Shown one piece after another: positions 1 to 10,936 of a stretch of 10,936 nt of DNA. The stretch lies in NCBI GenBank assembly GCA_009936885.1, contig JAACDT010000152.1:1-10936 (forward strand), given 5' to 3'. The stretch is from Alphaproteobacteria bacterium (GTDB lineage Bacteria > Pseudomonadota > Alphaproteobacteria > Puniceispirillales > Puniceispirillaceae). Every line of letters begins with the position of its first letter. Within the stretch, counting starts at the first letter, position 1. The position numbers and the translations under genes are program-made. Under the pieces are notes generated by a model. That model made no database searches and was not told the DNA's origin. It worked only from the letters and a program-made list of their open reading frames with translations.

Positions 1-948
1 CACAAAACCGCAGTCTATACTATCAATATCGAAAGACATATATACCATGTCGGTATCTTTCCACGCTAGCTCCAATGCCATTTCTATTGTCTTATCAATT
101 CCTAATTTTTCTACGTCACTCATTGTTAAAATATTGGTGTTGCGCTCTCGTGCTACTTCTACCGCCTCTCTTGGCACTTGCCATCCGCCGATACCGACCT
201 GTACTAAATTTTCAGGTCTAACATTTTCAAGATTGGTTGCATGGAACCATGGTGTTGTATGCATTCTCTCATCTAAATCTTTTTCTTGAATATCAGCGTG
301 CCGATCAAAATGAATGATGCCTATTCTTTTGGATGTACACTCCGCAATCCCTCTTACTGTTGGAAAGCCAATAGAATGATCCCCGCCTAAAATAACAGGC
401 AATGAGCCACTAGAGAAAACATGAGAACACGCACGAGAAATTTGATCGAAAGTCTTCTCAATATTAGCAGGAATTGTGAAAATATCGCCAGCATCGCACA
501 AAGACATCTGCTCTCGTAAATCAACGCCCATTTCGTAATTATAAGGCGTATATAATGCAGATATTTTTCGAATTCCTTGAGGCCCAAACCTGGTTCCTGG
601 CCGGTAAGTTGTCCCGCCGTCAAATGGTGCCCCTAATATTGTGGCGTCATAGTTTTTAACATCTTTCACATTTTCTGCATAAGGCGCTTTCAAAAACGTA
701 TTTATCCCAGCGAAGTGAGGAAGCTCTCCGCGTGAGAATGTGGGTATTGAGCGGTCCTCAATACTGTCAGCGCCTGTTAGCCCCATCTTTAGAGCCCATG
801 ATTTTTCTTCATTTAGTCTATCTTTTGGGATATTTTTCTCATCCCGTGCAGCTTTCCATCCTTGAAGCTCATCCAGATTAGGATGATGGTATCTCTTCTC
901 TCTTTTATTCTTAAAATGCAAAACCTGTTCGATGGTAGCAGATGACAT
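1..948 (-). CDS. gdmH: Ureohydrolase, GdmH-like guanidine hydrolase (3' end outside window)
   Basis: Reading the minus strand from ATG at 948 gives 316 codons with no stop before the window edge, so the C-terminus is missing. All six metal ligands of the arginase/agmatinase fold are visible: H191 in GGDHS, D215, H217 and D219 in HFDRHAD, and D307 and D309 in SFDIDS, so a two-metal hydrolase is expected. The core starts only near residue 100 (DATILGAPFDGG), leaving an N-terminal extension of about 90 residues. This extension, Arg instead of Ala in the HFDxHxD motif, and the segments TYRPGTRFGPQGIR, ALYTPYNYEMGVDLRE and MHTTPWFHATN match my memory of Synechocystis Sll1077, the Ni-dependent guanidine hydrolase that yields urea and ammonia. 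Alternatives are hydrolases of a substituted guanidine such as methylguanidine or guanidinobutyrate. The start is supported by AAGGA seven bases upstream. It is divergent from the amidase operon. Ureohydrolase family is near certain; the guanidine specificity is probable. Confidence 0.85.
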   Translation of the reverse strand, partial: MSSATIEQVLHFKNKREKRYHHPNLDELQGWKAARDEKNIPKDRLNEEKSWALKMGLTGADSIEDRSIPTFSRGELPHFAGINTFLKAPYAENVKDVKNYDATILGAPFDGGTTYRPGTRFGPQGIRKISALYTPYNYEMGVDLREQMSLCDAGDIFTIPANIEKTFDQISRACSHVFSSGSLPVILGGDHSIGFPTVRGIAECTSKRIGIIHFDRHADIQEKDLDERMHTTPWFHATNLENVRPENLVQVGIGGWQVPREAVEVARERNTNILTMSDVEKLGIDKTIEMALELAWKDTDMVYMSFDIDSIDCGFV

Positions 949-1087: not shown

Positions 1088-2593
1088 ATGTCAACAGTCA
1101 ACATATTAGGTATGAATAAAAAAGCCACACCGTTAGAATCAGATGAACTTTGTGCGAAAAGTGCCGTAGATTTAGTCTCGCTTATCAAAACGAGAGAGAT
1201 TAGTTGCGTCGATTTGATGGAAAGCTGCATTCACAGATACGAACAAGTAAATGGGGCGATTAACGCGGTTATAGAAACAAATTTTGAAAACGCATTATCC
1301 GTAAGCAAAGATGTTGACAAAAATTTTGAGCAAAGAATAGCAAACGAGCGTTTTCTTCCTATACCCATTGGGATCAAAGACTTAAATGATGTTGCGGGGA
1401 TGAAGACCACTTATGGCTCTCCTCTCTTCCAAAATAATAAGGTTGAAAATGACGATGATGTCGTTGCTCATTTAAAAGATGCATCAGTAATGATTTTTGG
1501 AAAAACCAATGTTCCTGAACATGGTTTTGGCGCGACAACAACAAACCCATTACAAGGCAGTACTGGCAATCCATTTAATCCGTTACTTAGCGCGGGTGCT
1601 TCAACCGGAGGAGGTGCTGCTGCCGTTGCAGCTGGAATAGTGCCGCTTGCAACAGGTTCTGATTTTGCAGGGTCACTTAGAACGCCCGCCAGCTTTTGCG
1701 GGATAGCTGGAATGAGACCATCTAACGGTATTGTGGGAACTGGCAGGCGCTCAAACATTTGGTCTCCGTTCGATGTTGAAGGACCAATGGCAAAAACTGC
1801 TGCAGACTGCAAGCTTCTGCTCGGTCATATGGCAAAATCGCATCCCTTAGACCCATTTTCGAAATCGCAGTCTGTTGTGCTACTTCAACCAGCCGAAGAA
1901 ATTGACTTAAAAAAGCTAAAGGTTGCTGTATCACATGATCTTGGTTTTGCGATTATGTCAAAATCCTACGAGCATACATTTTACACGAAACTAAAAAAAT
2001 TTAGTTCCTTATTTGCCCTTACTAAAACAGCGCATATGGATCTCTCAGCCGCCTATAAAACGTTTATGACTTTGCGGAGCATTGGATTTCTGGGTGATTT
2101 TGGGCTTATGGAGAAAGAATTTGGAGACGAATTAGGCGACGTAATCATAAAAGAGCTCGAACTTGCAAGGAAGTTATCTTCGCAGAATATTGCCAATGCC
2201 TTTTTAGAACACAGCAGCATTGTGCGCCAAAGTGATGCTTTTTTTGATGAGTTTGATTTGTTAATAACACCTGCTGCGTCAGTGTCACCATTTGAACATG
2301 AGCTTGAATATCCATCAAATATCGATGATGTGGTTTATGAAGGCTATCTCGACTGGGAAGCAATTAGTTGGGGCATCACGCTAACACAATGTCCAGCAGT
2401 AGTTATCAATTGCGGTATGGATGAATTCGGCATGCCATTCGGTATTCAGATTATCGCCAAACAGAATAGAGACGCATTTTTACTTGATGCGGCTCATTCT
2501 ATTGAAAAAGCATTTTTGGGAAGTGAGGAATTATCCAGACCAATCCCAAATTTAGAAAAGTTGGTCGCTATGAAAGCGTTGACTTTAAATTAA
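1088..2593 (+). CDS. Amidase-signature family hydrolase
   Basis: This 501-residue protein belongs to the amidase signature (AS) family, which hydrolyses carboxamides through a Ser-cisSer-Lys triad. The triad is complete: K97 in GIKDLND, S172 in GASTGGG, and nucleophile S196 in FAGSLRTPASFCG. The spacings of 75 and 24 residues equal those of the well-studied family member FAAH (142, 217, 241). The glycine/serine motif is slightly unusual, with Thr173 and Gly176 where Ser is common. There is no signal peptide, so it acts in the cytoplasm. It is too short and lacks the C-terminal domain for allophanate hydrolase, and I see nothing that marks it as GatA, so the substrate is open. No good ribosome binding site precedes the ATG at 1088; a second ATG at 1112 (residue 9) is an alternative start. 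It is the first gene of the plus-strand operon and ends 18 bases before the binding protein gene. In this context it probably deaminates an imported amide or a pathway intermediate. Confidence 0.9.
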   Translation: MSTVNILGMNKKATPLESDELCAKSAVDLVSLIKTREISCVDLMESCIHRYEQVNGAINAVIETNFENALSVSKDVDKNFEQRIANERFLPIPIGIKDLNDVAGMKTTYGSPLFQNNKVENDDDVVAHLKDASVMIFGKTNVPEHGFGATTTNPLQGSTGNPFNPLLSAGASTGGGAAAVAAGIVPLATGSDFAGSLRTPASFCGIAGMRPSNGIVGTGRRSNIWSPFDVEGPMAKTAADCKLLLGHMAKSHPLDPFSKSQSVVLLQPAEEIDLKKLKVAVSHDLGFAIMSKSYEHTFYTKLKKFSSLFALTKTAHMDLSAAYKTFMTLRSIGFLGDFGLMEKEFGDELGDVIIKELELARKLSSQNIANAFLEHSSIVRQSDAFFDEFDLLITPAASVSPFEHELEYPSNIDDVVYEGYLDWEAISWGITLTQCPAVVINCGMDEFGMPFGIQIIAKQNRDAFLLDAAHSIEKAFLGSEELSRPIPNLEKLVAMKALTLN

Positions 2594-2611: not shown

Positions 2612-3430
2612 ATGTTAAGAATATTATTTGTTGGTCTTATAGCCACTCTGTTGCCATTTAAAATGGTAACAGCTGATACGCTAAGTGATATAAAAGCTAG
2701 TGGTAAACTAGTGTTTGGTCTTGAGGCTGGTTATAAACCATTCGAATTTCTGGACGAAAATAACAACCTAGTAGGATATGATATCGATGTTGGAACCCAA
2801 ATCAGTAAACGCCTTGGCGGTCTTGAGCCAACCCCGAAAGACACAAATTGGTCAACTGTTATTCAATCACTATATAATGGAGATTTTAATCTGATTTTGG
2901 GTGGTATGACAGCCACTGAAGAGAGATATAAGCGGGTTAACTTTTCATATCCATACATGGATGCAAGTTCGGGATTGTTAGTTATGAAGGATTCAGGAAT
3001 TACGTCTCCCGCGATGCTTGGCGGAAAAGTTGTATCAGCTGGAGCCGGCACACCACAAATTAATCAGCTTTCACTTGCCGCCAAAGAAAACGGTATAACT
3101 TATGACGGTGAAATCAAAACTTATGATAAAGATGAAGTGGCATATGCAGCAATGCGTTCTGGTCGTCTTGATGCTTATGCATCAACACTTGTAAGCCTCC
3201 TCGCTTTTGCGCAAACAAGTGATGATTTTACTGTCATTCCATTTACGTCTAACATGTGGAAAGCAGAATTTACATCAATGGCATTTCGTAAGGAAGACGA
3301 GTCATTTAGGTCTGCAGTCAATCAGATTATCGTAGATATGAAGGCAGATGGCACATTGGCATCATTACAAGAAAAATGGTTTGGTCAGTCTTTTGTTGAT
3401 TTACTGCCAGATGAGGCACCAACTTGGTAA
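2612..3430 (+). CDS. ABC transporter periplasmic substrate-binding protein, family 3 (polar amino acid type)
   Basis: The 272-residue precursor starts with a hydrophobic signal peptide (about residues 1-21, likely cut after VTA). The mature part is a type II periplasmic binding protein of the SBP_bac_3 family: KASGKLVFGLEAGYKPFEF at the N-terminus, the LVGYDIDVG segment, and TATEERYKRVNFSYPY. Arg105 in the last is the family's ligand-carboxylate-binding arginine. The second lobe keeps GAGTPQI and GRLDAYAS. The Asp that holds the ligand's alpha-amino group in HisJ/LAO proteins lies five residues after D187; here it is Thr192. The ligand may therefore carry a carboxylate without a standard alpha-amino group, but this is inference from one position. 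There is no lipobox cysteine, so the protein is expected to be free in the periplasm. Two permease genes follow directly. The fold and role are secure; the ligand is unknown. Confidence 0.93.
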   Translation: MLRILFVGLIATLLPFKMVTADTLSDIKASGKLVFGLEAGYKPFEFLDENNNLVGYDIDVGTQISKRLGGLEPTPKDTNWSTVIQSLYNGDFNLILGGMTATEERYKRVNFSYPYMDASSGLLVMKDSGITSPAMLGGKVVSAGAGTPQINQLSLAAKENGITYDGEIKTYDKDEVAYAAMRSGRLDAYASTLVSLLAFAQTSDDFTVIPFTSNMWKAEFTSMAFRKEDESFRSAVNQIIVDMKADGTLASLQEKWFGQSFVDLLPDEAPTW

Positions 3431-3457: not shown

Positions 3458-4135
3458 ATGGATTTCATTTTTATCATAGACCAAATGCCCCGGCTTTTGC
3501 CGGGGCTAATGCTTACTATAGAATTAAGCTTGCTTGGGTTCTTTATAGCCACAGTTATTGGTGTGCCTTTTGGCATTCTAAGAGCTTATAAAATTCCGTT
3601 TTTAGTATCTATAATAATTGATTTTTATGTGTTTGTAGTTAGAGGTACGCCAATCCTTGTCCAAATCTATGCTGCTTATTTTTTGCTGCCAGTCTTTGGT
3701 CTTAAAATATCTCCATTCTGGATAGGTATTGTGGTTTTGTCTTTTAATAGCGCTGGCTATCAGATTGAAATTGCAAGAGCCGCAATTCTGTCTATGGATG
3801 ATGGACAGTATGAAGGCGCTTTTGCGCTTGGGCTTGGAAAATTTCATACGCTCTTTTTCGTGATACTGCCTCAGGCAGTTTTAAGAATGTTGCCCCCAAT
3901 GGCTAATGAGATGTCAAATCTCATTAAAGCATCATCTGTTTTATCTGTAATTACCGTTTTTGAACTTCATAAGGCTGCGAATGCGATCATTTCTGATAGT
4001 TTTAAATTTCTTGAAATGTTATTTGCTCAGGCAGTATTATATGTTGCCTTTGTTGTTGCTATGACACAATTATCTATTTATCTGGAAAAAAGAATTGGCA
4101 TAAGTCTCCAGGTTAAAAATCTGTCTCAACGCTGA
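3458..4135 (+). CDS. ABC transporter permease, HisM/ArtQ-type (first of pair)
   Basis: This 225-residue inner-membrane protein has about five hydrophobic segments (roughly residues 16-41, 48-75, 82-104, 155-175 and 186-208) and the features of the amino acid permease family. These are VRGTPILVQIY at 61-71 and the ATPase-contacting EAA loop at 119-150 (EGAFALGLG followed by LPQAVLRMLPPMANE). The start at 3458 gives the usual family N-terminus (hydrophobic, then LLPGLMLTIELSLL). An in-frame ATG at 3485 lies directly before a strong hairpin and would cut this off. The upstream Shine-Dalgarno is weak. It pairs with the next gene to form the heterodimeric channel for the ligand delivered by the upstream binding protein. 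No cognate ATPase gene lies in the operon. Confidence 0.93.
   Translation: MDFIFIIDQMPRLLPGLMLTIELSLLGFFIATVIGVPFGILRAYKIPFLVSIIIDFYVFVVRGTPILVQIYAAYFLLPVFGLKISPFWIGIVVLSFNSAGYQIEIARAAILSMDDGQYEGAFALGLGKFHTLFFVILPQAVLRMLPPMANEMSNLIKASSVLSVITVFELHKAANAIISDSFKFLEMLFAQAVLYVAFVVAMTQLSIYLEKRIGISLQVKNLSQR
3487..3506. repeat. Strong GC-rich hairpin inside the start of the first permease gene
   Basis: A perfect 8-base stem (GCCCCGGC pairing with GCCGGGGC) closed by a TTTT loop stands out against very AT-rich surroundings. It lies 57 bases after the binding protein stop codon and about 30 bases into the permease reading frame, where it encodes part of the MPRLLPGLM segment. No T-tract follows, so it is not an ordinary intrinsic terminator. 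It could protect the upstream binding protein message from 3' decay or slow permease translation, lowering permease relative to binding protein. Confidence 0.6.
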
Positions 4136-4158: not shown

Positions 4159-4809
4159 ATGACTTTAGATTTAGCGTTCATGTACCAGATATTGCCAGAT
4201 ATGCTAGCTGCATTTTGGCTAACTATAAAAATCAGCTTGATTACAGTGATTGCATCAGTGATTATAGGTATTGTACTTACTGCGTTTCGTATGATGGGCG
4301 GCAGAATATCTCGTTATCTTATTATTGCGTTTGTCGAGTTTACCAGAGGTGCACCTCCTTTAGTTCATATATCAAGTATTTACTTTCTGTTTCCAGAATT
4401 TGGGATTGTCTTTAACGAATTTTGGACAGGTGTTGTTGCTCTCTCTCTTATTGGTGCTGGCTATTCAGTTGAAATTTTCAGAGGCGCTATTGATTCAATT
4501 GGAGCATCGCAGGTAGATGCATCAAGGGCAATTGGACTGTCGCGGATTCAAACATTCAGGTTAGTGTTAATTCCTCAGGCTCTAAGGCTAAGTCTTCCGC
4601 CGCTAACCAACGAATTAGCAAATGTTATTAAAGCTTCTTCATTGCTATCCGTAATTTCGGTAAATGAGCTAACAAAAGTTGCAAATGACCTCATTTTTGT
4701 TCATTTTGTAGTCATTGAAGTACTTATCGAGCTTACCTGTCTTTATCTTTTGATAGTTGGATTTTTGATGTTTTTGTCGAAATATATGGAAGCAAAATTC
4801 AAATATTGA
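4159..4809 (+). CDS. ABC transporter permease, HisM/ArtM-type (second of pair)
   Basis: This 216-residue inner-membrane protein is homologous to the preceding permease and forms the second half of the channel. It has about five hydrophobic stretches, FTRGAPPLVH at 61-70 in place of the usual RGTPLLVQ, and an EAA loop region at 120-152 (DASRAIGLSRIQ, then IPQALRLSLPPLTNE). Position one of the EAA loop is Asp instead of Glu. The gene starts 23 bases after the first permease, with an AAGGGA ribosome site a few bases upstream, and ends 9 bases before the M16 gene. The SBP-permease-permease order is typical of ectoine- and amino-acid-type importers, which normally also carry a short GlnQ-like ATPase gene; none is present here. 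Confidence 0.93.
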   Translation: MTLDLAFMYQILPDMLAAFWLTIKISLITVIASVIIGIVLTAFRMMGGRISRYLIIAFVEFTRGAPPLVHISSIYFLFPEFGIVFNEFWTGVVALSLIGAGYSVEIFRGAIDSIGASQVDASRAIGLSRIQTFRLVLIPQALRLSLPPLTNELANVIKASSLLSVISVNELTKVANDLIFVHFVVIEVLIELTCLYLLIVGFLMFLSKYMEAKFKY

Positions 4810-4818
4810 AATGTAGTA

Positions 4819-6042
4819 ATGATACCGATGGAACAAACGAAAATTTCTGAATTATCCAACTTGTTAAAGGTTGCAAGCCACTATGATGCCACCGTATCAA
4901 GCACAACCTTATGCTTATGGGTGAAATCTGGAAGTAGCTCTGACCCACTGGGGAAAAACGGTCTAGCCCATTTATTAGAACATACTTTATTTGGGGCATA
5001 TTCACATACCCATCGCTCTGATATTTATTCTGGAATTGTAAATCGGGAATTTACGCTTACGGCATTCACCGAGTTAGAGAATACATGCTTTGTTATTAAT
5101 TTCATAAACCGAGACAAGCTTCAGGCATGTGTGGATGTATTATGGAATATTTTTTCTGGAACATGGTTATCCGAACAAGGCTTGATTGATGCTAAATCTG
5201 ATATCTGCAAAGAAATAGATACATTATCGCAAGATAAGGATGAAACACTATTTGACTCACTTAATGCGATTTGCTTCCCTAAACAGTCGTATGGACGCCC
5301 TATCGCGGGTTCTTATAAGACTATATCAGAGTTACAAATCGAAGATTTACAAGATTTTCTAAAACAAGAATACGTCGCCGCAAATACGTTAATTTGCATG
5401 GCAGGTAATATAGAGCATCAACAGCTTGTTGATTGTGTCGATAATAAATTTGCGACCTTGCCATTCTTAAGCAAGTGCTTGGTGGGTGCGCCGCAATGGG
5501 GAGGTGGTGTTAAAAAGCTGGAGCAAGAAGACAATCAAACAAGGGTAGCTATTAGCCTTGCTTTTAAGGCTAGCAGTGCGCGGGATTATTATTTGTTTTG
5601 GCTTGCATCCTATATATTAGCAGCCGAAACAGTAACTGGGTTTCAGGGCGCTTTGAATCTGAATTCCTCGGATCGTCGCGATCTGTTTATCTATCCTGAA
5701 TTTTTATCAAATCTTGGTAGAATGAATTTTTATTTCAGGGTGCAGTCTTCGAATGGTGTAGCTGTAATAGATAAAATTCGGTATCAGCTTCGCAGCAATA
5801 CAAGAACCAAATTAACAAACCTGATTGCGCAATTAAAGCAGTCAGATATTAAACAGTTCTTACAGTCCATTGAATTAAAAAATAGTAAGTTGGAGCATCT
5901 TACAATGTGCTTGAGCCATTATCAATTATTGCCAAGTGATGTTCCTTTGCCTCACGCACATATCGAGATGCAGGATAGTCTTATTTCAATTTTAGAAAGT
6001 TTGTACACGCCAGATCTAGAAGCTATTGCGTATACCGCTTAG
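4819..6042 (+). CDS. M16 family (insulinase/pitrilysin-like) zinc metallopeptidase homologue
   Basis: The 407-residue product has the inverted zinc motif HLLEH at 51-55. A further glutamate, E132 in CKEIDTL, follows with 76 residues between, which is the exact spacing of the HxxEH-x76-E zinc site of M16 peptidases. The catalytic base (E54) and all three ligands are therefore present. Residues about 25-195 form the active M16 domain (TTLCLWVKSGSSSDP, TAFTELENTCFVI, SYGRPIAGSYKTISEL), and about 200-400 form a weaker, inactive-type second M16 domain. The length matches single-unit members such as mitochondrial-processing-peptidase beta-like proteins, which act as dimers. There is no signal peptide, so a cytoplasmic location is expected. 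ATG at 4828 (residue 4) is an alternative start. It sits in a transporter/aminotransferase operon, 9 bases after a permease gene, which suggests action on a small imported peptide or peptide-like compound, but the substrate is unknown. Confidence 0.85.
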   Translation: MIPMEQTKISELSNLLKVASHYDATVSSTTLCLWVKSGSSSDPLGKNGLAHLLEHTLFGAYSHTHRSDIYSGIVNREFTLTAFTELENTCFVINFINRDKLQACVDVLWNIFSGTWLSEQGLIDAKSDICKEIDTLSQDKDETLFDSLNAICFPKQSYGRPIAGSYKTISELQIEDLQDFLKQEYVAANTLICMAGNIEHQQLVDCVDNKFATLPFLSKCLVGAPQWGGGVKKLEQEDNQTRVAISLAFKASSARDYYLFWLASYILAAETVTGFQGALNLNSSDRRDLFIYPEFLSNLGRMNFYFRVQSSNGVAVIDKIRYQLRSNTRTKLTNLIAQLKQSDIKQFLQSIELKNSKLEHLTMCLSHYQLLPSDVPLPHAHIEMQDSLISILESLYTPDLEAIAYTA

Positions 6043-6083: not shown

Positions 6084-8039
6084 ATGTCAGAATTTGATAA
6101 GAATATTGGGTTTCTGTGGCCATGCGATGGCTTGAATGATCAGGAATACTGGCATTTTCTTCCTGATAATATCGGATGGCTTACAGCAAGGTATGACGCT
6201 GGTACGCAAACAGAGGCGTTAACGCATCATAATTTAGAGCAATATGCCTCTCTTGAAACATTGAGAAGGGCCGCAAGTATTTTTAAATCTGTTAAGCTTG
6301 ATGCGGTTGCTTGTGGTGATCATGCAGCTAGTTTTATTCTTGGAAAAAAACACGAAGAATATTTGATTGAGAAACTACAAGAATTTGCAGAATGTCCAGT
6401 AACGTTTCCTAGTAGGTCAATCGTTAAATTAGCCCAAAAAAACAATCTTGGAAATATATTGCTGATTTCGCCCTACACAAAAACCATAACCAAAAACTGT
6501 GTGAATTATCTCTTGGAATATGAGATTAATACGCTGTCCTCTTTATCGCTTGATGCAAACGATGAGATACGCATAAATACTTTTTCTCCAACAATCTTAT
6601 TGGAGAAGATTGTTGAATTTGTGCAACAGAGCGCACAGACACCAGATGCGTTAGTAATAGCGGGAGGTGGGCTATCATTTTCTTCACAAATTGCCAAACT
6701 TGAGATGCTCATCAACCTACCTGTGTTGACGGCCGTTGGTGCGCTTGTAAAAGATGTCGTTGAATTAACAGGTAATAGGTATAATAAAAATGGGTTAGGC
6801 AGATTATTTATGATGCCTGTAACATCTGGTCTGAAAAATATTAGAGATAGGCTATCATCTGGAACCAAAAATTTCTCGCTAATGGAAACCCCGCCGATCT
6901 TCAGCGATGGTGTTGGCTCCGTATTGATAGATGAAACTGGCAAATCCTATTTAGATTTTGCTTCTGGGTCAGGCACTACTGCTCTAGGCCATGGTCATAA
7001 GGCGTTATTAAGGTCAGTCCAAGAACAGCTTCAAACAGGCATTTTTCATATTGGCCCACATTTTAATACAAGTACTCAGGCAGCACTTTATTCTGAATTA
7101 AGTACTATTCTGCCTGCTGAGTTATGCAGGTTTCACCCTTCAATCAGCGGGTCTGAAGCAACAGAAATAGCAATAAAATCTGCTATGCATTTTACAGGAG
7201 CTAATAAATTTGTTGGGTTTACGGGGGGGTATCACGGCCGAACCCTCGGCGCACTTGCTGTTTCAGGCGAAAAGGGCAAAAATATTTCTCTTGGACCATT
7301 TTATCCAGATACTAAAATTATTGATTTTCCAACTAATGGTGGCGACCTGACGGCTAGCCTATCCGAATTAGAAAATCAACCATTATCAGGTGCCATAATT
7401 GAACCTATTCAAGCAACAGCAGGTTTAAAATTTGTAAGTAAGCAGTCACTCCATGAGCTAAGAGAATTTGCTAATATGAAAAAAATCCCGTTAATTTTTG
7501 ACGAGACTTTTACAGGCTTTGGACGCACGGGCAAGATATTTGCGTTTCAGCATTATGACATCATCCCTGATATGATTATTTTTGGTAAAGCATTATCTGC
7601 TGGGTTTCCTGCTGGTCTTGTGGTGTCAAATGAAGCGATATTAACCCATTGGGAAAAAGGAACACAATCATCTACGTTTCAGCTTAACCCAGTTGCAGCT
7701 GCGGCTTCGCTGTTTTTTCTCGACCAGATTAAAAATGGGGATATTCTGACAAATATAGATAATAACGCGATTGATTTCGATAAAATGTTGAGTGAGATTA
7801 AAAACTTATCTGGAGTAGTTGATGTAAGAGGTGTTGGAAGCTTTTTTGTGGTGGAGTTTGTGTCTGCCGAGATAAACAAAAAAGTCCGCCAGCTTGCACT
7901 CAGTCAGGGTCTTATCACATGGGAGTGCGGTGAATTTGGAGAATGTTTGGGTCTTGTGCCGCCACTAAACATTGATGCGGTGCTGGTCAAAAAAGGGTGT
8001 GAGATTATTGTAAAAACGATCAACGAAATCTGTCATTAA
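6084..8039 (+). CDS. Fusion protein: degenerate Asp/Glu racemase/arylmalonate decarboxylase-like domain plus class III aminotransferase
   Basis: The 651-residue product has two parts. Residues about 1-245 resemble the maleate isomerase/arylmalonate decarboxylase/EutA group: IGFLWPCDG near the N-terminus, LDAVACGDHAASF at 72-84, PDALVIAGGGL at 187-197, and LPVLTAVGALVKDVVELTG at 212-230. The two positions that hold catalytic cysteines in this superfamily align to D79 and G194, so it is probably not a normal racemase; C77 lies two residues away and could matter if my alignment is shifted. Residues about 265-651 form a complete PLP-dependent class III aminotransferase: SGSEA at 355-359, GGYHGRTLG at 381-389, FDETFTGFGRTGK with D473, Schiff-base lysine K502 in FGKALSAGFP, and STFQLNP at 530-536. 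The usual substrate-carboxylate arginine near the C-terminus is Gly623 (ECLGLVPPL). AGGGA at 6070-6074 serves as ribosome site. It is the last gene of the operon, and its 3' end overlaps the opposing aminotransferase gene by 20 bases. Confidence 0.88.
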   Translation: MSEFDKNIGFLWPCDGLNDQEYWHFLPDNIGWLTARYDAGTQTEALTHHNLEQYASLETLRRAASIFKSVKLDAVACGDHAASFILGKKHEEYLIEKLQEFAECPVTFPSRSIVKLAQKNNLGNILLISPYTKTITKNCVNYLLEYEINTLSSLSLDANDEIRINTFSPTILLEKIVEFVQQSAQTPDALVIAGGGLSFSSQIAKLEMLINLPVLTAVGALVKDVVELTGNRYNKNGLGRLFMMPVTSGLKNIRDRLSSGTKNFSLMETPPIFSDGVGSVLIDETGKSYLDFASGSGTTALGHGHKALLRSVQEQLQTGIFHIGPHFNTSTQAALYSELSTILPAELCRFHPSISGSEATEIAIKSAMHFTGANKFVGFTGGYHGRTLGALAVSGEKGKNISLGPFYPDTKIIDFPTNGGDLTASLSELENQPLSGAIIEPIQATAGLKFVSKQSLHELREFANMKKIPLIFDETFTGFGRTGKIFAFQHYDIIPDMIIFGKALSAGFPAGLVVSNEAILTHWEKGTQSSTFQLNPVAAAASLFFLDQIKNGDILTNIDNNAIDFDKMLSEIKNLSGVVDVRGVGSFFVVEFVSAEINKKVRQLALSQGLITWECGEFGECLGLVPPLNIDAVLVKKGCEIIVKTINEICH

Positions 8040-9285
8040 TAATGGTTGCTAGCTTGCTTAAGTTATCTGATAGTAATTCTTCAGAAATATTTATGGGTGG
8101 TACTAGCATTAAACACTCACCACCTAAACCCCCGCCATAGGTTAATATATTAGCCTTGTCCATTGCAAGCCTTTGTATATCGTTTGCAATCTGTGCATTT
8201 TCGAATGTAATCGCACATTGAGCGCCGACACACCTAATTTGCCCGATGTTTTTATCATCTATGAGGCTCTGTGCAAGCCGTAAAAAACAGGGTTCTATGA
8301 CATCACTGACATGGTCAATTAGACTGGATTCTTCAATTTCTAGTAGCGTAGCTGATGCGGCAGCACAGGCAAGAGGATTGCCTTGAAATGTTGATGTATG
8401 AGCGCCAGCCTTCCATTGTTTTAATAAATCCCCCTTTGCAATTACTGCAGAAAGTGGAAGAGATGCAGACAATCCCTTTCCCATAACGATAAGGTCAGGC
8501 GTAATATCAGAATACTGAAAAGAAAATTTCTTTCCAGATCTGCCTAATCCAGACCAGATTTCATCCACTATAAGCAAGCATCCATAACTGTCTGCAAGCT
8601 TGCGAAGTTCATTTAGAAATTCTGGGAACGGGCCCCAAACACCAGATACGCCCTGAATAGGTTCAACTAATAATCCAGCAATTGGCTCACCTTCTCTCTT
8701 ACAATGCTCAAAAAGCATGGCGCAATGCTGCAAACAGTTTTGGACTTGTGATGTATCTCGAGGGTAGGGTGAAAATGAAACAAAATCGCCTATTTCCCCG
8801 ATAAACGGAAGTCTGATATTCTCAGAATGTGTGACACTTAATGCGCCCAATGTACGACCGTGATAACCTCCTTCAAACGCAATAAATCGCTTATTTCCCG
8901 TTATAAAACGAGTAAGCTTAATGGCGGTTTCAATAGCTTCGGACCCAGAATTAGACAGATGAATTGATATATCTTGAATTCCTGCGTAGTGACTAAGTTG
9001 GTCATAAAGTGCTGCTCTAAACGGCGATATAAGACGTGTACCAGTATGAAGAATGCCGCTATCAAGCGCATTTTTTATGGCGTTTATTTGGGCTGGGTGA
9101 TTATGTCCAAGGTTAGATGTCGCAGAACCACAAACAAGGTCTAGATATGCTACATCATCTTCCGTATATAACCAGGGCCCATCTCCTCTTACAAACACAG
9201 GCGGAGTATCTGATAATTTGAACGTATTTACAGCCGTACTTTCAAATGTTTTGGTGATTGATAAATTGTCTACATGTTTAATCAT
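8020..9285 (-). CDS. Class III pyridoxal-phosphate aminotransferase
   Basis: The 421-residue enzyme has all class III markers: SGSEA at 113-117, GGYHGRTLGALS at 139-150, VDEIWSGLGRSGK with PLP-contacting D241, the Schiff-base lysine K270 in VMGKGLSASLP, and STFQGNPLACAAA at 298-310. It would move an amino group, usually from a terminal amine or omega-amino acid, to a keto acid. It is clearly related to the aminotransferase half of the fusion protein on the other strand: both begin with TPPxF, share GIxHxG and AALYxxLS segments, and end in GECLxLVPPxNI. Here the usual carboxylate-binding arginine is Met393. It starts inside the end of the ATPase gene (8-base overlap), with no visible Shine-Dalgarno, so its translation is probably coupled. 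The exact substrate is not readable from sequence. Confidence 0.93.
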   Translation of the reverse strand: MIKHVDNLSITKTFESTAVNTFKLSDTPPVFVRGDGPWLYTEDDVAYLDLVCGSATSNLGHNHPAQINAIKNALDSGILHTGTRLISPFRAALYDQLSHYAGIQDISIHLSNSGSEAIETAIKLTRFITGNKRFIAFEGGYHGRTLGALSVTHSENIRLPFIGEIGDFVSFSPYPRDTSQVQNCLQHCAMLFEHCKREGEPIAGLLVEPIQGVSGVWGPFPEFLNELRKLADSYGCLLIVDEIWSGLGRSGKKFSFQYSDITPDLIVMGKGLSASLPLSAVIAKGDLLKQWKAGAHTSTFQGNPLACAAASATLLEIEESSLIDHVSDVIEPCFLRLAQSLIDDKNIGQIRCVGAQCAITFENAQIANDIQRLAMDKANILTYGGGLGGECLMLVPPINISEELLSDNLSKLATIINDRFR

Positions 9286-10330
9286 AAATTATATGAAGCT
9301 CATTATGTGTTAAATTTACGTAAACTTGTTCTGACAAATCTGGCAAAATGTACTTTCTGGGAACATCTATGTCCAACAGTAACCCATTTTCAAATTCCAC
9401 AGTTAAAAGGTTACTTGTTCCTTTTGTAATAATATCAAAAACTTTCGCTTTGAGCTGATTTTTAGAAGTTATTCGTTGCTCAGCAATTGCCAGAAATTCG
9501 GGTCGGATGACAGCTCTAGCGTTGTTTGATTCTAGCTTAATTGCTGTTTTACAGGGCACGTTAGTGTGCTCTAGCAGTAATTTTTCTGTATCTTTTTTAC
9601 TTCTAATTATTGGCCAAAGAGCACATTTTCCAAAGAAATTTGCTACAAATTCAGAAGCTGGTTTATCATAAAGTTCATTTGGAGTTCCGATTTGTTCTAT
9701 CTGACCATCGTTTAGAATTGCAATTCGGTCGCTTAGCGCCATGGCTTCTTCTTGGTCATGTGTTACACAAATAAAAGTGGTTCCGATCTGCTTATGTATC
9801 TTTCGTAGCTCTTCTCGCAGTCTGATCCGAAGATTAGCATCTAACGCGCTTAAAGGCTCATCAAGGAGGAGTATTTTTGGATTGGTTATTAGAGCCCTAG
9901 CTAGCGCAACTCTTTGTCTTTGTCCCCCTGATAATTCTGATGGAAATCGGTTCTGAGTGTTAGAGAGTTGCATTGTCTCGAGCCATTGGGCAGCCTGCTT
10001 TTCCCGCTCTGTCTTGCAAACCCCTCTCATACGTAAGCCGTAAGACACATTCTCTATTATTGTCATATGAGGAAACAGTGCATAATCCTGAAACATTATC
10101 GAAATATCCCGTTTTGTTGGATTTAGATTCGTAATATCAACATCTTCTAGCTGGACAACTCCACAAGTAACATTTTCTAATCCAGCAATAATTCTTAAAA
10201 TGGTTGTTTTTCCGCAACCAGATGGTCCAAGGAGAGTTAAAAATTCGCCGTTCTCTATTTTGAGCGAAACATTATCTACAGCTAGGGTTTTCCCAAATTT
10301 TTTCGTAATATTTTGTAACTTCATAGACAT
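9278..10330 (-). CDS. ABC transporter ATP-binding protein, PotA/UgpC/CysA-type with C-terminal TOBE domain
   Basis: Counting from ATG at 10330 gives 350 residues. The nucleotide-binding domain is intact: Walker A GPSGCGKT at 35-42, Q-loop Q81, signature LSGGQ at 133-137, Walker B ILLLDEP at 153-159, D-loop SALD, and H-loop H191. After about residue 235 comes a TOBE-type regulatory domain (AVIRPEFLAIAE and following), which puts it with the ATPases of spermidine, sugar-phosphate, iron and sulfate importers. It is not one of the short GlnQ/HisP proteins that normally serve HisM-type permeases. It could energise the plus-strand permeases or belong to another transporter outside the window. A TTG at 10354 in the same frame would add eight residues, and an ATG at 10324 would remove two; family N-termini favour 10330 or 10324. 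It is the promoter-proximal gene of a two-gene unit with the downstream aminotransferase and is divergent from the GntR gene. Confidence 0.93.
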   Translation of the reverse strand: MSMKLQNITKKFGKTLAVDNVSLKIENGEFLTLLGPSGCGKTTILRIIAGLENVTCGVVQLEDVDITNLNPTKRDISIMFQDYALFPHMTIIENVSYGLRMRGVCKTEREKQAAQWLETMQLSNTQNRFPSELSGGQRQRVALARALITNPKILLLDEPLSALDANLRIRLREELRKIHKQIGTTFICVTHDQEEAMALSDRIAILNDGQIEQIGTPNELYDKPASEFVANFFGKCALWPIIRSKKDTEKLLLEHTNVPCKTAIKLESNNARAVIRPEFLAIAEQRITSKNQLKAKVFDIITKGTSNLLTVEFENGLLLDIDVPRKYILPDLSEQVYVNLTHNELHIIYD

Positions 10331-10395
10331 TTTTGACTTACCATGTAATTTCAATTAGATTTCCGTATAAATGCTATTTCTGATGGTCGAGGCTC
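10331..10395. promoter_or_regulatory. Divergent intergenic region between ABC ATPase and GntR regulator genes
   Basis: This 65-base gap must hold the promoters of both divergent genes and is the natural place for an autoregulatory GntR operator. It is AT-rich. I see no clear inverted repeat in it, and no copy of the CATACA/TGTATG repeat found upstream of the amidase. Confidence 0.4.
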
Positions 10396-10936
10396 ATGCT
10401 CCTACCCAAACTTCCGACGACAATTTCTGATTATATTTTCACTGACCTCAGGGAAAATATTATTGATGGTACTCTCAAGCCAAACCAAACTCTCCGAGAA
10501 GAAGAGATAAGTATTCGCTTCGGCTCCTCTAGAGGACCTATCCGTGAGTCTCTCAGATTGCTGCTGCAAACAGGTTTGGTCGTGCATCAACCGAGAAAAG
10601 GGTTTAAAGTCAGAGATTACACACCCAAACAAATTAGACAAATTTATACGCTTAGAGCTAATCTCGAAGGACTTGTTATCATAGAGTTTGAAGGCAAGGA
10701 TCTTAACAGCCTGATCGCCACGCTCAAGGAATCCAACCAAAGAATGGAGGCTTCTTTTCAGAAAAATGATATTTATAAGTATTTTCAGGAAAATATTTTT
10801 TTTCATCAAATGATAATTGATTTTGCTGATAATGACATTCTGAAAAAAACAATAGCCCTTGTAAATGAAGTTTCTCTTCCGGTTCGATATCAGCTCATGC
10901 ATCATTCTCTTCCCTCTCGAAGGTCTCTTACTTATC
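10396..10936 (+). CDS. GntR family transcriptional regulator, FCD subfamily (3' end outside window)
   Basis: Translation from ATG at 10396 gives 180 residues, open to the window edge. A stop codon 15 bases upstream in frame makes this the only likely start; GAGG at 10389-10392 is a close-spaced ribosome site. Residues about 8-73 form the GntR winged helix: LRENIIDGTLKPNQTLREEE, then the recognition helix GSSRGPIRESLRLL and the wing QPRKGFKV. From about residue 78 the helical FCD ligand-binding domain begins (QIRQIYTLRANLEGL). In the metal-binding DxxFH-type segment, H137 is kept but the Asp position appears to be Asn133. Such regulators sense small organic acids or amino acid metabolites. Its place beside the ATPase and aminotransferase genes suggests local control. 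Fewer than the usual 220-240 residues are visible only because the window ends. Confidence 0.88.
   Translation, partial: MLLPKLPTTISDYIFTDLRENIIDGTLKPNQTLREEEISIRFGSSRGPIRESLRLLLQTGLVVHQPRKGFKVRDYTPKQIRQIYTLRANLEGLVIIEFEGKDLNSLIATLKESNQRMEASFQKNDIYKYFQENIFFHQMIIDFADNDILKKTIALVNEVSLPVRYQLMHHSLPSRRSLTY

Follow-up and report, generated by a model that had tools for sequence, protein, structure and literature searches.

What does a racemase-type domain do once both of its catalytic cysteines have been replaced, and why is it joined to an aminotransferase? The question is raised by a gene on a 10,936-nucleotide contig of an alphaproteobacterium of the Puniceispirillaceae (JAACDT010000152.1; this whole stretch of DNA is called the window below). 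The gene (6084-8039, + strand) is an intact open reading frame (ORF) for a protein of 651 amino acids, in which a domain of the Amdase/maleate isomerase fold without either catalytic cysteine (6084..6818, + strand; residues 1-245) is followed by a class III aminotransferase domain dependent on pyridoxal phosphate (PLP) (Aminotran_3; 6858..8039, + strand, stop codon included; residues 259-651, with Lys502 as the PLP lysine). We propose, with a probability of roughly 0.6, that the fusion is a functional enzyme with two active partners, encoded in a gene cluster for catabolism, and that its front domain is no dead remnant but would offer an acidic pocket to a cationic group on the compound that the aminotransferase handles. 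The source genome is a 1.86-Mb draft (339 contigs, 80% complete), in which the window is C24:1-10936. The closest named relative of the window is locus L002 of an Alphaproteobacteria metagenome-assembled genome, 94% identical in the best segment; genomes of the SAR116 cluster come next.

Both domains were found in this order by a Pfam search: Amdase (PF17645) at residues 57-242, whose 51.1 bits exceed the gathering score of 25.9, and Aminotran_3 at residues 274-646 (3.4e-80). When the full-length model was submitted to a fold search, the 50 best matches listed were class III PLP enzymes only, and the N-terminal domain was therefore predicted alone. It then displayed an Asp/Glu racemase-type fold, with a match to the maleate isomerase 4fq5 over approximately residues 4-248, a broader stretch than that recognized by Pfam. 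Both checks had been suggested by a sequence-only reading of this DNA, and both bear out its view that residues 1-245 follow the pattern of maleate isomerase, arylmalonate decarboxylase (AMDase) and EutA.

The catalytic positions were read in two alignments. The fused proteins (alignment A2: 55 homologues and the window, 56 rows, of which 55 hold enough of the N-terminal domain to be counted) come from the best 120 of 523 matches (7998 candidates scored), 56 of these 120 carrying both Pfam domains; P0058 is in A1 and not in A2, and one A2 row with both Pfam domains is excluded from the 55 because too little of its N-terminal domain is present. Alignment A3, made with MAFFT, combines 18 distant PF17645 members with 13 of 21 close stand-alone forms of the domain (P0121-P0141). 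Of the 18 distant members, 16 have Cys in the column of Asp79 (codon 6318..6320, + strand), where the first catalytic cysteine is expected (exceptions: His in P0144, Tyr in P0159), and 14 have Cys in that of Gly194 (codon 6663..6665, + strand), at the second cysteine (Gly in P0144 and P0159, Ala in P0156 and P0158). PDB stretches added to the alignment agree, Asp79 falling on Cys98 of 2xec and on AMDase position 74 (Gly74; the stretch used is from the G74C mutant), and Gly194 on Cys216 of 2xec and Cys188 of AMDase. Subtracting 22 presumably converts Cys98 and Cys216 of 2xec to Cys76 and Cys194 of the published maleate isomerase numbering; the PDB title of 2xed names C194S. Asp79 and Gly194, which the sequence-only reading had already placed at the two cysteine positions, are each present in 55/55 fused rows and in 13/13 aligned stand-alone forms, so the replacement is not due to chance. 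The two-cysteine mechanism (one-cysteine in AMDase) is the hallmark of the Asp/Glu racemase superfamily, and not even one of the two catalytic cysteines required for its thiol chemistry is found in any of the 55 rows.

Two further positions differ from maleate isomerase. Asp15 (codon 6126..6128, + strand) aligns with Asn14 of maleate isomerase, and Glu161 (codon 6564..6566, + strand) with Asn163 of the same enzyme and Val156 of AMDase; each is found in all 55 fused rows. Within the Amdase family, the domain is part of a single clade that has Asp15-Asp79-Glu161-Gly194 in place of Asn14-Cys76-Asn163-Cys194. Equally invariant among the fused rows (55/55 each) are Glu21, Arg36, Ser129-Pro130-Tyr131 and all of Gly194-195-196, with Asn18 in 54/55; Glu21 and Arg36 are frequent outside the clade too and hence not diagnostic. 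Asp15, Asp79, Tyr131, Glu161 and Gly194-196 also persist in the 13 aligned stand-alone forms, except for an Arg at 196 in P0140, and fused and stand-alone forms are only about 30% identical. The kept Tyr131 and Gly195 align with Tyr126 and Gly189, which in AMDase form part of the dioxyanion hole, Val156 being part of the binding pocket (PMC4996985, in the part available).

The sequence-only reading had considered new chemistry through Asp79/His80 or through Cys77, and of these only Asp79 remains a candidate. Cys77 was rejected as a replacement nucleophile, being present in 39/55 fused rows and 0/13 stand-alone forms, and His80 as a universal catalytic residue, position 80 holding His in 46, Phe in 6 and Cys in 3 of the 55 fused rows, and Cys in 13/13 stand-alone forms. 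Since neither is conserved, neither is likely to be a general catalytic residue. No conserved cysteine was found elsewhere in the domain (Cys14 in 21/55, Cys104 in 36/55 and Cys139 in 2/55 fused rows), nor any invariant histidine. By eye, one fused homologue (L021:5031-7040) reads FGCGI in the region of the second cysteine, with a Cys one residue after the usual position.

The ratio of nonsynonymous to synonymous substitution rates (Ka/Ks) between the window and L002, L003 and L004 is 0.208, 0.161 and 0.073 for the domain and 0.142, 0.132 and 0.112 for the aminotransferase, synonymous sites being near saturation in the comparison with L004. Purifying selection acts on the domain, about as strongly as on the aminotransferase. 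A pseudogene or an assembly artefact was ruled out, given this selection and the recurrence of the fused ORF in independent records.

The two-domain architecture is that of a family and is not unique to the window: at least 56 proteins carry both domains among the best 120 of 523 matches, and the Asp/Gly pair is present in 55/55 fused rows counted; the sequence-only reading had proposed counts of this kind. Unfused two-gene versions exist as well. Patterns drawn from the aminotransferase half retrieved 29 loci from genome contigs, and the domain is present in 28 of them, fused in 25 and encoded by a separate upstream gene in 3, and absent from 1. Counted as fused are L012, which lies at a contig edge and covers residues 209-651 only, and L016, whose ORF call is 537 amino acids long and whose match covers residues 7-647. 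The separate gene lies just upstream of the aminotransferase gene in L026 and L027 (Hyphomicrobiales) and in L029 (Gammaproteobacteria), where its stop codon overlaps the aminotransferase start codon. The domain is thus linked to the aminotransferase, either fused to it or encoded by the gene immediately upstream. The locus without it, L030 (Pelagibacteraceae), has two class III aminotransferases that are related to the cluster's and have no such domain beside them; it also has a RidA protein, an aldehyde dehydrogenase and a class I PLP enzyme. Elsewhere in this Pelagibacteraceae genome (L059:6954-8872), a Cys-bearing EutA-like gene (209.7 bits, cut-off 318) directly precedes a DoeA/EutD-like gene (456.1 bits, cut-off 613), a pair that suggests ectoine use in that organism.

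In a tree of 44 rows, the 29 rows of the clade make up one side of a branch (100/99). The starred branches force at least three changes of the fused label, and likewise of the solo label, so that the two parts were joined or split more than once. The tree is drawn with a midpoint root and does not settle the direction between fusion and fission. The tree group labelled 'cys' (15 rows) denotes the rows outside the clade and not a set with both cysteines (it includes P0144, P0159 and P0156), and P0155 and P0159 are flagged as long branches.

The nearest outgroup row, L056 (100/97), keeps both cysteines, yet has Asp15, Asn18 and Glu161. A similar state is found in 12 EutA-type loci, with Asp at position 15 in 11/12, Asp (10/12) or Glu (1/12) at position 161, and both cysteines in 12/12; L060, with Asp at 15 and 161, is the only one above the EutA cut-off. 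By our own criterion for EutA-type proteins, acids at 15 and 161, the window domain (Asp15, Glu161) falls with them. Within 385 genomes sampled across the class, the domain profile matches in 131, and the motif was read in 20 loci including the window. Asp at position 79 occurs in the window only; among the 19 others, L042 and L050 have no first Cys and L036 and L038 no second. In eight genomes already known to have the form typical of the clade, the best matches range from 229 to 377 bits, these genomes or close relatives having helped to build the profile, and the best other genome reaches 211.6 bits (L056/L032, both cysteines), the next 137.7. No second case of the clade's type was seen in this sample, as far as the motif was read in the 20 loci fetched. 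Cysteine loss in itself was rejected as a mark unique to the clade, as both aligned positions are free of Cys in P0144, P0159, L033, L035 and L043; at the catalytic positions L033, L035 and L043 read FC[QL] and PGGNM, P0144 GHAAS/CGTG and P0159 AYTAS/GGNG. We also rejected L057 as a picture of the ancestral cluster. A Cys-bearing family member lies there beside genes for an amidase, a ureohydrolase and a class III aminotransferase; this aminotransferase reaches no more than 28% identity, its match being not the fusion but another aminotransferase of the cluster, and the Amdase protein groups away from the clade.

The attached aminotransferase keeps all the PLP residues checked (Lys502, Asp473, Tyr383-His384-Gly385-Arg386 and Thr531, in 72/72 rows), in agreement with the sequence-only reading. 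It shares these with class III aminotransferases of the gamma-aminobutyrate (GABA), acetylornithine and putrescine types, to which the fusion adds a front domain of 245 residues, and its identity to GABA aminotransferases is 24-28% in the fold search. It has Thr445 (55/55) where PuuE and the Thermus acetylornithine aminotransferase have Glu, and Gly623 (53/55) where PuuE has Arg, and in this it departs from the 2-oxoglutarate-dependent GABA/ornithine type. We take these Glu and Arg residues of PuuE to be the gate glutamate and the 2-oxoglutarate-binding arginine; with both replaced, 2-oxoglutarate may not be the acceptor. A second class III aminotransferase gene, AT2 (8020..9285, - strand), is convergent with the fusion gene, overlaps its 3' end by 20 bases and has a homologue in 25/30 loci. 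AT2 belongs to a single clade of 8 rows on a long branch (100/100, length 1.62), and the four relatives of AT2 that were read show Val and Met at the positions of the PuuE Glu and Arg.

Six genes follow one another closely on the + strand, with gaps of 9 to 41 bases, and the fusion gene closes the series. This apparent operon starts with an amidase-signature amidase (1088..2593; 27/30 loci), followed by an amino-acid-type ATP-binding cassette (ABC) solute-binding protein (SBP_bac_3; 2612..3430; 26/30), two ABC permeases (3458-4135 and 4159-4809; a permease in 28/30) and a single-unit M16 metallopeptidase (4819..6042; 14/30), which ends 41 bases upstream of the fusion gene. The peptidase reads HLLEH, presumably the HxxEH zinc motif, and its 14 loci are the window, SAR116 genomes and two Alphaproteobacteria. 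On the other side of AT2 lie a polyamine-type ABC transporter ATPase (9278..10354, - strand; 25/30) and a GntR/FCD regulator cut by the window edge (10396..10935, + strand; 18/30), and the opposite edge cuts a ureohydrolase gene (1..948, - strand; 15/30). All these counts are from tblastn over 30 loci including the window and are mostly lower bounds, contig ends cutting many loci. They were used since ORF calling had kept long antisense ORFs in loci of high G+C content (c20-c23) and had merged the M16 peptidase with the aminotransferase cluster; each tblastn stretch was named by its best query, so paralogues may be loosely named (the permeases, and the polyamine-type ATPase, polyATP, in L020, L021, L024, L025, L028 and L030, loci with several ATPases or with one of a different kind). 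On the same basis the aminotransferase is found in 30 loci, the domain in 29, RidA and the aldehyde dehydrogenase in 24 each, the class I PLP enzyme in 22, the permeases of a second importer in 16 each, a polyamine-type binding protein and a 134-amino acid orphan in 12 each, and a double Cyclase-domain protein in 11. The cluster recurs in SAR116 and Rhodobacteraceae-type bacteria. More of it is found on contig C70 of the window's own genome (L058, 9868-17003; 86-98% identical to L002), where RidA lies about 100 bases from the contig end. Given this position of the cluster part near the contig edge, the window contig and C70 may be neighbours; both halves are contiguous in L002.

As to the substrate, the orthologue of the window ureohydrolase in L010 scores 518 bits to 7esr and 513 to 9fek, the next PDB relative following at 176. 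The entries 7esr and 7oi1 are labelled 'Probable agmatinase 2', and we take them to be the nickel guanidine hydrolase GdmH of Synechocystis; 9fek is an 'agmatinase 2' entry as well. The existence of GdmH as an enzyme is documented (PMC11399263, in the section available). Since half of the loci have such a homologue, the compound may carry a guanidino group. The 134-amino acid protein beside the ureohydrolase in relatives (L002:3208-3612) has no Pfam or NCBIfam match at the thresholds used, and comparisons of the solute-binding proteins gave no substrate. No substrate call was drawn for the class I PLP enzyme (L002:16733-17815) either: its NCBIfam scores are far below the cut-offs (archaeal aspartate aminotransferase, 152.7 versus 550; second best GntC, the hydroxyarginine cyclodehydratase, 150.1 versus 415), and its best PDB relative is an aspartate aminotransferase. 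Collectively, the gene content suggests a nitrogen compound, the breakdown of which matched no described route in this analysis.

The proposed route would run as follows. The cluster would import a nitrogen-rich, amide-containing compound, which the amidase would hydrolyse; the two class III aminotransferases would transaminate the product, RidA would clear imines and the aldehyde dehydrogenase would oxidise the aldehyde. Within the fusion, acids at the positions of the isomerase asparagines, as in the EutA type, would most likely hold a cationic amine, amidine or guanidinium group; the cationic amidine of hydroxyectoine, together with the acids at 15 and 161 in EutA-type proteins, is what leads us to a cationic ligand. 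The domain may present or sense the compound of the aminotransferase, or process it by a one-sided acid/base step in which Asp79 would take the role of the cysteine; such a step, directly preceding or following transamination, could be a proton shift, an epimerisation or a tautomerisation. We give a catalytic step about an even chance, the invariance of Asp79 in all clade rows examined leaning slightly towards it, and pure binding or channelling a lesser, though still substantial one. The suggestion of the sequence-only reading that the domain turned to binding or to cysteine-free chemistry is supported.

Several observations weigh against a cysteine-free enzyme with a cationic ligand. Positions 15 and 161 were given their pocket roles from the alignment, from a table in a single paper and from general background on the family. 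Cys-bearing members, too, can have an acid at 15 or 161 (the EutA type; at 161 also P0142 and L042), so the acids alone are no argument for cysteine-free chemistry; the acidic pocket could hold a metal ion instead. Cysteine loss is also seen outside the clade, though P0144 has a Cys at 193, and L033, L035 and L043 have one at 78, with indels nearby. The ureohydrolase is present in only 15 of the 30 loci. Finally, the only family match at E <= 1e-10 in the L030 genome (1.0 Mb) is a Cys-bearing EutA-like protein, and the aminotransferases of L030 without the domain imply that it is not needed everywhere.

The most serious competitor is a module that does no chemistry, serving as an allosteric sensor or as a substrate-delivery site for the aminotransferase. 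The disappearance of acid/base cysteines from both sides of the pocket, the variability of position 80 and the domain-free aminotransferase of L030 would all suit it, and we regard it as plausible at somewhat below even odds: an Asp79 invariant between fused and stand-alone forms of such low identity is stricter than what sensors usually keep, and the repeated fusion and splitting of the two parts is common for consecutive enzymes. The same L030 aminotransferase and the same lost cysteines could alternatively mean that the domain has degenerated, an ancestral racemase having lost its function and serving the aminotransferase only as a structural appendage. Ka/Ks well below 1 and about at the level of the aminotransferase, invariant polar pocket residues, and the retention of the same residues by stand-alone genes make this highly improbable.

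The three invariant acids at pocket positions, Asp15, Asp79 and Glu161, could also form a carboxylate triad binding a divalent metal, which would turn the racemase fold into a hydrolase or lyase; this is unlikely, as no invariant histidine accompanies them and as EutA-type proteins with their cysteines intact share Asp15 and an acid at 161. Least probable of all would be an ectoine/hydroxyectoine utilisation cluster with the domain as a diverged EutA. The common acids at 15 and 161 fit this idea, as does the association of an importer, an aminotransferase, a semialdehyde-type dehydrogenase and a GntR-type regulator found in ectoine clusters (PMC5924519, in the portion available). The NCBIfam scores are nevertheless low, 48.7 bits versus a cut-off of 318 for EutA, 63.3 versus 190.9 for EhuB and 139.2 versus 205.2 for EhuD, both EutA cysteines are missing from the domain, and neither an ectoine hydrolase (DoeA/EutD) nor a diaminobutyrate (DABA) deacetylase (DoeB/EutE) is among the annotated neighbour clusters, mostly those in at least three loci. 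By the models tested, the cluster is not of the ectoine type.

Returning to the fusion as a working enzyme, we tentatively extend this reading to a history, which we rate as possible but below even: a cysteine-independent enzyme would have evolved in the Asp/Glu racemase superfamily, acids at 15 and 161 first fitting an EutA-like pocket to a substrate with a cationic amidine or guanidine group while the cysteines were still present (as in L056), and the Cys pair then giving way to Asp79/Gly194 with a new reaction, acid/base on one side only and coupled to transamination. Marine and other bacteria would use the cluster as an as yet undescribed route for a guanidino or amide compound. A clade lacking both cysteines, with a different set of pocket residues frozen and a Cys-bearing outgroup still living, would offer a stepwise case of a fold changing its chemistry or becoming a binding module, and the natural unfused versions allow a simple test.

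Among known systems, the literature of one open-access library gives no account, among the matches listed, of the fused architecture or of a branch with Asp/Gly at the cysteines, and names no characterised protein of this kind, as the sequence-only reading had supposed; the words 'aminotransferase' and 'fused' are absent from the text of PMC4996985, as far as available. AMDase of Bordetella bronchiseptica (NF052327) is defined by Cys188, Thr75 and Ser76 (PMC4996985, same part), where the window domain has Gly194, His80 and Ala81, and the domain scores 64.4 bits against the model's cut-off of 225. OpaE, a recently solved atypical member of the family, uses both cysteines (PMC12661438, in the part available). 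The maleate cis-trans isomerases of Nocardia (2xec) and Pseudomonas (4fq5) differ at all four positions, with Cys76/Cys194 and Asn14/Asn163 against Asp79/Gly194 and Asp15/Glu161 of the window. We take these four residues to be the functional ones of maleate isomerase. EutA (TIGR02990), proposed to act on hydroxyectoine (PMC5924519, same portion), is a separate gene in ectoine clusters, and EutA-type proteins keep both cysteines (12/12) where the window domain keeps neither. Yet EutA shares with the domain the family fold and the acids at 15 and 161, and lies, like the fusion, in gene clusters for import, an aminotransferase and an aldehyde dehydrogenase. Owing to the shared acids, the parallel with EutA noticed in the sequence-only reading is stronger than had been claimed.

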